NCBI GenBank assembly: GCA_009695285.1
Contig: SIBH01000008.1
Coordinates: 1-35,606 of the forward strand
DNA from: Pedosphaera sp.
GTDB taxonomy: Bacteria; Verrucomicrobiota; Verrucomicrobiia; Limisphaerales; SIBH01
DNA: 35,606 nt
Reading direction: 5' to 3'
In this document: positions 16,298 through 27,290 of the stretch, in pieces
Position numbering within the stretch: the stretch's first letter is position 1
Layout: the number at the start of each line of letters is the position of its first letter
Translations under genes and position numbers: made by a program
Notes under the pieces: generated by a model
What the model saw: only the letters and a program-made list of their open reading frames with translations
Databases searched by the model: none
Told to the model about the DNA's origin: nothing

Positions 16298-16408
16298 CCC
16301 GGAACGTCGGCTTCAGTCAGCAGCAGGCGGCGAAGTTCGAGCGGGATGGAATCTCCAGAAGGTTTCCTGTGACCGGAAATCTCTGCCGGCTGAAGCCGGC
16401 GTTCCGGG
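16298..16408. repeat. Inverted pair of palindromic intergenic repeats
   Basis: A 26-base sequence at 16298-16323 returns inverted at 16383-16408 with about three mismatches, separated by 59 bases. Each copy contains a core like GGCTGAAGCC, and the right copy also holds a short palindrome (GCCGGCTGAAGCCGGC). This resembles paired REP/BIME-type elements. It lies between the CotH gene and the converging response-regulator gene, where it could form a stem that ends both transcripts. Confidence 0.6.
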
Positions 16409-26180: not shown

Positions 26181-26198
26181 GCGGAACGGTTTCCCACG

Positions 26199-26230
26199 AG
26201 CGGCGGTCCCGGACCGCCGCTCTTTTTTTG
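26199..26230 (+). terminator. Strong rho-independent terminator
   Basis: A 12-base inverted repeat (GAGCGGCGGTCC and its complement) separated by a single C, so a few bases open as the loop, is followed by seven T. It ends the Gfo/Idh/MocA transcript and stops only five bases before the apbE start codon. Confidence 0.8.
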
Positions 26231-26234
26231 CCCG

Positions 26235-27290
26235 ATGCCCACCGCCCCGCCCACCGTCGCCGTCGCACGCCACGCGATGGCGACGCGCTTTGAAATCATT
26301 TTGCACGGCGCGAACGCGGCCTCGTTGCGCGCGGCGGGCGAGGAGGCGTTGAACGAAATTGCCCGGCTCGAAGATCAGCTCAGCCTCTACCGGCCCGCCA
26401 GCGAGATCGCCCGCGTCAACGCCCGCGCCCATCTCGAACCCGTGCGCGTCAGCTCGGAGCTGTTTGCCCTGCTGCAGCACGCGCGGCAACTCCACCGCGA
26501 GACCAACGGCGCGTTCGACATCACCATCGGCCCGCTGATGCGCTGCTGGAGTTTCCTGGGCGGCACCGGTGCGCTGCCCGAGCCCGCCGCGCTGGCCGAG
26601 GCGCGCACAAAAGTGGGAATGGATTTGGTGCAACTCAACAATCTCACTGTCCGCTTCGCGCGTCCCGGCGTGATGCTCGATCTCGGCGCGATTGGCAAAG
26701 GTTACGCCATCGAGCGCGCAGCGGAGTTGCTGCGCGAGGCCGGCGTGACCAGCGCCATTCTGCACGGCGGCACCAGCACGGTTTTCGCGATCGGCCGGCC
26801 ACCGGATGCGGACGGTTGGAAAGTTGCCGTGGACGTGAACGCTGATCTAGAACGCCGGTCTCCGACCCTGCGCAATGATTATGTTGGAGTTCAAGCTTCA
26901 GCTTGTTCCCCGGACAGGCTGAAGCCTGAACTCCAACGGGCCGGGCCGGTTTCACCCATCATCATCCCGTTGCGCGATGAAGCCCTCTCCGTTTCCGCCG
27001 TCTGGGGGAAATCGTTTCAGTCCGGCTCGAAAACCTTGGGTCACGTCCTCGACCCACGCACCGGCGAACCGGCTGACCGCGCCGTGCTCGCCGCCGTCGT
27101 CACCCGCTCCGCGACGGAGAGTGACGCCCTCTCGACGGCGTTGCTGACGGACGGGCCGGAGGCCGTCGAGTGCATCGCCGCGCTGCGTCCCGGCACGCGC
27201 ACGCTGGCCGTGCAGCACACGAATGGACCGATGAAAGTCGCGGCCCAAGGCATCAAGCATCTGCTCATTGGCGGGGCGGAAGAAATTTGA
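26235..27290 (+). CDS. apbE: FAD:protein FMN transferase (ApbE family) with an in-frame palindromic insert
   Basis: The 351-residue product carries ApbE motifs: 'RHAMATRFEIILHG', 'TNGAFDITIGPLMRCWSF', 'LDLGAIGKGYAIERAAELL' (about 148-166), 'ILHGGTSTVFAIG', 'LRDEALSVSAVWGK' and 'HVLDPRTGEPA'. ApbE uses FAD and Mg2+ to attach FMN to Thr/Ser of target proteins such as Rnf or Nqr subunits, usually outside the cytoplasm. No signal peptide is visible on this start. Residues about 204-238 are not part of the family; they are encoded by a palindromic element (26883-26937) and its flanks, which keep the frame. The insert replaces the loop just before the 'IIPLRDEALS' strand, so the enzyme may still fold. 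The start lies five bases after a terminator, with no room for a normal promoter; transcription may come from readthrough. Confidence 0.85.
   Translation: MPTAPPTVAVARHAMATRFEIILHGANAASLRAAGEEALNEIARLEDQLSLYRPASEIARVNARAHLEPVRVSSELFALLQHARQLHRETNGAFDITIGPLMRCWSFLGGTGALPEPAALAEARTKVGMDLVQLNNLTVRFARPGVMLDLGAIGKGYAIERAAELLREAGVTSAILHGGTSTVFAIGRPPDADGWKVAVDVNADLERRSPTLRNDYVGVQASACSPDRLKPELQRAGPVSPIIIPLRDEALSVSAVWGKSFQSGSKTLGHVLDPRTGEPADRAVLAAVVTRSATESDALSTALLTDGPEAVECIAALRPGTRTLAVQHTNGPMKVAAQGIKHLLIGGAEEI
26883..26937. repeat. Palindromic element inside apbE
   Basis: Arms of 22 bases (26883-26904 and 26916-26937) match at 20 positions as an inverted repeat around an 11-base loop. The core again contains GGCTGAAGCC. 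In the apbE frame it is translated as 'VGVQASACSPDRLKPELQ', a sequence foreign to the ApbE family. Confidence 0.8.

Follow-up and report, generated by a model that had tools for sequence, protein, structure and literature searches.

The apbE gene of the analysed stretch of Pedosphaera sp. DNA (35,606 nt of contig SIBH01000008.1; below, the window) carries an in-frame palindromic insert. Judged from the sequence of its many copies, this insert is likely to belong to a non-autonomous, REPIN-like mobile repeat, which consists of two inverted 23-nt units, each with a fixed 5' tag and a covarying mini-hairpin. The repeat, here called family A, is dispersed mainly as inverted pairs and lies in frame in many conserved genes, from which it is absent in relatives; its structure is maintained by compensatory change. 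As family A sits in frame in many unrelated enzymes, small selfish-looking DNA appears to add new stretches to working proteins.

The hairpin in apbE

The features of the window and the copies of the dimer in other genes are listed in the table. The hairpin at 26883-26937 is made up of the two inverted 23-nt units and a 9-nt spacer between them. As an inverted repeat it has arms of 24 nt (26883-26906 and 26914-26937, 92% complementary) around a gap of 7 nt. A first-pass annotation made from the letters of the window had described a 55-base hairpin with 22-base arms at this place; the hairpin is confirmed, the arm length is not. As DNA the hairpin has an MFE of -22.1 kcal/mol (z -7.9) and as RNA of -40.2 kcal/mol (z -9.1), and in both calculations 0 of 200 shuffles were equally stable. 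It encodes residues 217-234 (VGVQASACSPDRLKPELQ) without a stop and with the frame kept, just as the annotation had it with its addition of about 18 residues to an intact apbE ORF.

Homology to ApbE is found on either side of the insert. Three solved ApbE proteins align up to residue ~188-201 and resume at ~238-245, skipping the inserted stretch. When apbE was aligned from relatives, as had been proposed, none of the 29 genes compared contained the A element; none of these relatives is from the family of the window, and the exact empty site is not among them. The insert sits in a variable loop, which ranges from ~0 to 50 residues among the 29 relatives, and the A dimer together with the adjoining unit of another repeat (here family C) adds roughly 35 codons to it. 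The conserved C-terminal part is intact after the insert, and thus the ApbE of the window probably still works.

Rfam has no family matching at the apbE element, and its matches, all sub-threshold, lie at a hairpin near 26200. There, between an oxidoreductase gene and apbE (26198-26229), the sequence GAGCGGCGGTCC-C-GGACCGCCGCTC is followed by seven T and looks like an intrinsic terminator, the stem of which resembles family C.

Table. Features of the window and family A dimers in other genes
Feature	Position or locus	Strand	Basis or remark
apbE (FAD:protein FMN transferase family)	26235..27290	+	ORF list and Pfam PF02424, E 1e-61; ORF unbroken through insert
Family A head-to-head dimer (REPIN-like hairpin)	26883..26937	.	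inverted repeat, fold z-scores, repeat family; residues 217-234
Left A unit	26883..26905	+	tag GTTGGAGTTC and mini-hairpin CAAGC-TTCA-GCTTG; unit covariation
Right A unit	26915..26937	-	tag GTTGGAGTTC and mini-hairpin CAGGC-TTCA-GCCTG
C unit GAACGCCGGTCTCCGACC	26850..26867	+	encodes foreign residues upstream of hairpin; copies and recurrent offset to A dimers
Possible eroded right C unit GGGCCGGGCCGG	26938..26951	-	weak; below motif threshold in window
Family B head-to-head dimer, intergenic	16301..16405	.	element compared in the first-pass annotation; family distinct from A
A dimer in copper-type P-ATPase (CopA)	L159
A dimer in family 9 glycosyltransferase	L166
A dimer in FabD-type acyl transferase	L168
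A dimer in Mfd	L180		54/55 bases identical to window copy
A dimers in BioF-like and BioA-like aminotransferases	L182		adjacent genes
A dimer in PSCyt/PSD1 protein	L188
A dimer in DUF2851 protein	L179
A dimers in GH20	L091, L233
A dimer in chorismate-binding enzyme (PabB)	L224
A dimer in PLP decarboxylase	L227
A dimer in probable surface or heparinase-like protein	L230
A dimer in Methyltransf_30 protein	L226

Neighbouring and similar repeats in the window

Foreign residues had also been claimed for the flanks of the hairpin. This applies mainly to the left flank, where the C unit lies; on the right there is only the weak remnant, which has GCCGGGCCGG in common with the C unit on the right-hand side of the Mfd dimer (L180). 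The right C unit in apbE is either eroded or absent. The C motif (GAGCGCCGGTCTCCGACC type) has 37 matches within 2 mismatches in the window genome (reversed control, 1), and the C units themselves are mostly arranged head-to-head. They occur in 7 of 190 A-dimer flanks, where the background rate predicts ~0.4, and stand at similar offsets around the A dimers of the window, L075, L091, L180 and L181. Family A may have inserted into C, or the two may be mobile as one.

A core shared with an intergenic repeat at 16298 had been taken to join that repeat and the hairpin in one family. The core, the 10-mer GGCTGAAGCC, is indeed present in both and occurs in the window only at 16388 and 26917, but the kinship does not hold. 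The shared part is only the stem with its TTCA loop, and a common family of A with this repeat was rejected since tag and unit differ. The repeat at 16301 belongs to a separate hairpin repeat family B (GGAACGYCGGCTTCAGYCRGCAG; GGAACGCCGGCTTCAGCCGGCAG); further copies of B were seen in the window-genome loci L016, L027 and L270.

Structure and distribution of family A

The consensus of the A unit is GTTGGAGTTCA-N-GC-TTYA-GC-N-TG. In the window genome (2.15 Mb, 57% complete), GGCTGAAGCCTGAACTCCAAC is matched 31 times when up to 3 mismatches are allowed, and not once in the reversed control; a search anchored on tag and loop found 41 units. The element suspected to be a repeat thus has between 31 and 41 copies there. 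Within the order, the unit is present in 30 of 196 genomes with 1 to 158 copies each, the highest count being that of G024; the distribution is patchy, and the reversed control gave none.

The mini-hairpin was evaluated in 217 tag-anchored units. Its stem is Watson-Crick paired in 96.3% of cells, compared to 7.8% when the pairing is slid by one. Pair 12-21, on which the search patterns set no constraint, shows all four Watson-Crick types, i. e. compensatory change; pairs 13-20 and 14-19 were partly favoured by these patterns.

Head-to-head dimers were found in 64 stretches in a scan of species genomes. Their hosts are Limisphaerales and other Verrucomicrobiota, Pirellulaceae, Planctomycetaceae and one MAG labelled Akkermansia. 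There are 91 distinct head-to-head dimers of 52-99 nt (commonest 54-56) and 14 tail-to-tail pairs, the latter counted before removal of duplicates; the species-genome scan, which used a dimer as its pattern, partly favoured this excess of dimers, a bias from which the order-wide unit search is free.

In the window genome the tail-to-tail form is commoner than the head-to-head form. There the tags lie inside, 19-20 nt apart around a GC-rich centre, and the pairs are placed within a ~130-nt palindrome bounded by ATGCACTTGATTCC / GGAATCAAGTGCAT-like ends (examples: G000:C17:4248-4303, C64:3344, C95:5661-5716, C102:9509-9564 and C106:2665-2720).

Copies inside other genes

The A dimer interrupts at least a dozen recognisable genes in frame, within Pfam domains, which bears out the suggestion that this repeat family can live inside genes. 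Neither half of the counter-case considered in the first-pass annotation is found: the relatives do not all carry the residues, and similarity to other repeats does exist. Of the 13 exact dimers in G196, at least 9 lie within genes, and in the window genome the copies lie mostly outside recognised genes; these fractions were counted on the retrieved loci only. The bioF and bioA orthologues in relatives have no A element. The same is true for GH20 in the genus mates of G176, where the alignment shows further length differences.

As read from the sequence, dimers with a length of 1 mod 3 translate as VGVQASAC..LKxELQ and those with a length of 0 mod 3 as xWSSxFSxx..LKxELQ. Only one frame of the right arm is free of stops (LKxELQ), and in the left arm two frames are always open. 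Family A explains odd inserts in verrucomicrobial proteins, such as VGVQASAC..LKRELQ and RWSSSFSLS..TLKRELQ.

Mobilisation and alternative explanations

The first-pass annotation had advised a search for a RAYT-type transposase. Y1_Tnp genes exist in 20 of 22 genomes tested. In the retrieved, limited flanks of 38 of 39 distinct loci with such RAYT-like genes, taken from draft genomes and comprising only part of the Y1_Tnp matches, no A unit was found; the remaining one is a doubtful neighbour with an A unit ~340 bp away (G110:C7). Thus no transposase could be tied to family A among these loci, and the partner that was sought did not turn up. The only Y1_Tnp match of the 57%-complete window genome is a degenerate relic with an internal stop (L031, G000:C74:6277-6516). 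Other hairpins (GGGGCGTTGCCCC and GGGCCAAAGGCCC) were seen near this relic, and no A unit.

The proposed mechanism is that family A would be mobilised in trans by an HUH/Y1 transposase and would spread as single-stranded hairpin DNA, without target duplication. Insertion into genes would be about as frequent as elsewhere, and purifying selection would then leave only the in-frame copies in tolerant loops.

It is rather unlikely that the element is a classical MITE, i. e. a short element with terminal inverted repeats that a DDE transposase mobilises; the units would then be the ends of this element and not REPs. Like MITEs, family A is short and non-autonomous, has inverted ends and can be genic, and longer palindromic forms with additional inverted ends likewise occur in the window genome. 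Unlike in MITEs, however, each 23-nt unit forms a separate hairpin in which compensatory changes preserve the pairing, and recognition of double-stranded ends does not need this. Moreover, no parent IS was seen, as no autonomous element with A-type ends was found among the retrieved loci, and the flanks of the genic copies, inspected by eye and with no exact empty site for comparison, showed no consistent target duplication.

The great stability of the RNA hairpin would fit a palindrome which is not mobile but selected for a role in apbE mRNA or DNA, such as attenuation, pausing or mRNA stability. This reading is already disfavoured and we regard it as very unlikely: the same dimer recurs in intergenic DNA and in a dozen genes with no relation to one another, whereas the apbE genes of the 29 relatives do without it and Rfam offers no family match. 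Hardly credible, too, is an assembly artefact in which repeat copies were misjoined into genes. All genomes are draft MAGs, and one locus would suit a misjoin: in L152 (4187-4241, JAPLTZ010000136.1) one ORF has an A dimer exactly at the junction of a flavodoxin domain with a helicase C-terminal domain, which is either a repeat-mediated gene fusion or a MAG misjoin. Yet in nearly all cases, and in several assemblies, the sequences to the left and right of the dimer belong to the same domain of a single gene and share its frame, which a misjoin would not give. In addition, bioF of G200 carries a decayed A unit beginning at the same base as the insertion in bioF of G196.

Relation to known repeats

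REPs and REPINs are usually taken as extragenic. Family A, in contrast, is found in two phyla, and in at least one of the genomes most of its copies are genic. It does consist of many dispersed palindromic units, mostly in inverted pairs with a short spacer, and departs from the mostly extragenic location of REPs and REPINs with the genic dimers of G196. The REPINs of Pseudomonas are described as extragenic and occur in clusters beside RAYT genes (PMC3116915). Like family A, they are built from two short, tagged, palindromic units in inverted orientation, and they resemble it further in the variable spacer, the compensatory changes, the many dispersed copies and the lack of autonomy; they differ from it in that many A copies are genic and no convincing RAYT neighbour was seen at the loci retrieved.

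Genic REPs have been described in Opitutus terrae and Rickettsia, often as dimers adding 20-30 residues; dimers or groups of this kind made up more than 50% of the genic inserts surveyed (PMC3733652). The genic GTAG REPs of O. terrae come from the same phylum (Verrucomicrobia) and are likewise dimers in frame in genes. Family A is set apart from them by description, with a GTTG/GGAG tag instead of GTAG or GTGG, a 5-bp stem and a TTYA loop, and it is shared with Planctomycetota. The GTAG superfamily is defined by a terminal GTAG (or GYAG, GYRG, GTRG, GTMG, GTGG), and the CGTC-tagged REPs, to which the Rickettsia repeats RPE-4 and RPE-6 belong, by a terminal CGTC (or TGTC, CCTC) and an 8-9 bp stem (PMC3733652). 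The tag of family A has GTTG in place of the former; its sequence (GTTGGAGTTC) is not of the CGTC type either, and its stem has 5 bp. We therefore call family A REPIN-like and do not file it in these groups. The likeness to the palindromic elements of Rickettsia noted in the first-pass annotation is real at the level of how they work, both being palindromes that enter many unrelated genes without loss of the frame; the CGTC tag of RPE-4 and RPE-6 is lacking. In-frame genic REPs hence have precedents in Opitutus and Rickettsia, and family A is a further REPIN-like type, differing in its tag, its high genic fraction in at least one genome and its spread over two phyla.

A literature search found no paper describing the A unit, and among the matches listed for GTTGGAGTTCA the subjects were unrelated.

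Loops used by several repeat families

Some loops have been used by more than one repeat family. The apbE loop of G036 is occupied by a palindrome that is not of family A but related to CGCCGAGCAATGCTCGGC; in this genome the latter is matched 137 times in forward and 135 times in reverse orientation, a near-palindrome being scored on either strand. The loop in BioA contains an A dimer in G196 and another repeat, of the GGTGGGGCGAGCGTCCTCGCGAGCC type, in G199, G201 and G214, where this type has 34, 46 and 50 matches, respectively. For BioF, the genes of G196 and G200 are not grouped in the tree, which is too weak to prove independent insertions. The native codons at the bioF site of a relative (L241) are CGTTGG, matching the A tag; this one locus hints at a possible target preference of family A. 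Different REPs at about the same recB site are also known from two Xanthomonas species (PMC3733652).

We tentatively consider, as a possibility short of an even chance, that several unrelated REPIN-like families may have inserted and decayed again and again in the same tolerant loops (ApbE, BioF, BioA, GH20) of Limisphaerales and their relatives, and that this may be a main source of loop-length change. If this is true, REPIN-like elements would keep supplying proteins with new sequence and would not be extragenic DNA. The genic A copies and the shared loops allow direct tests of the way in which working enzymes gain residues from selfish DNA.

In a further genome, G024, the apbE loop (L034, G024:C22) contains GAGTTCCGCGTTCGCGCGG, which resembles yet a further hairpin repeat, GTTTGGAGTTCCGCGTTTACGCGG, of the window-genome locus L027.
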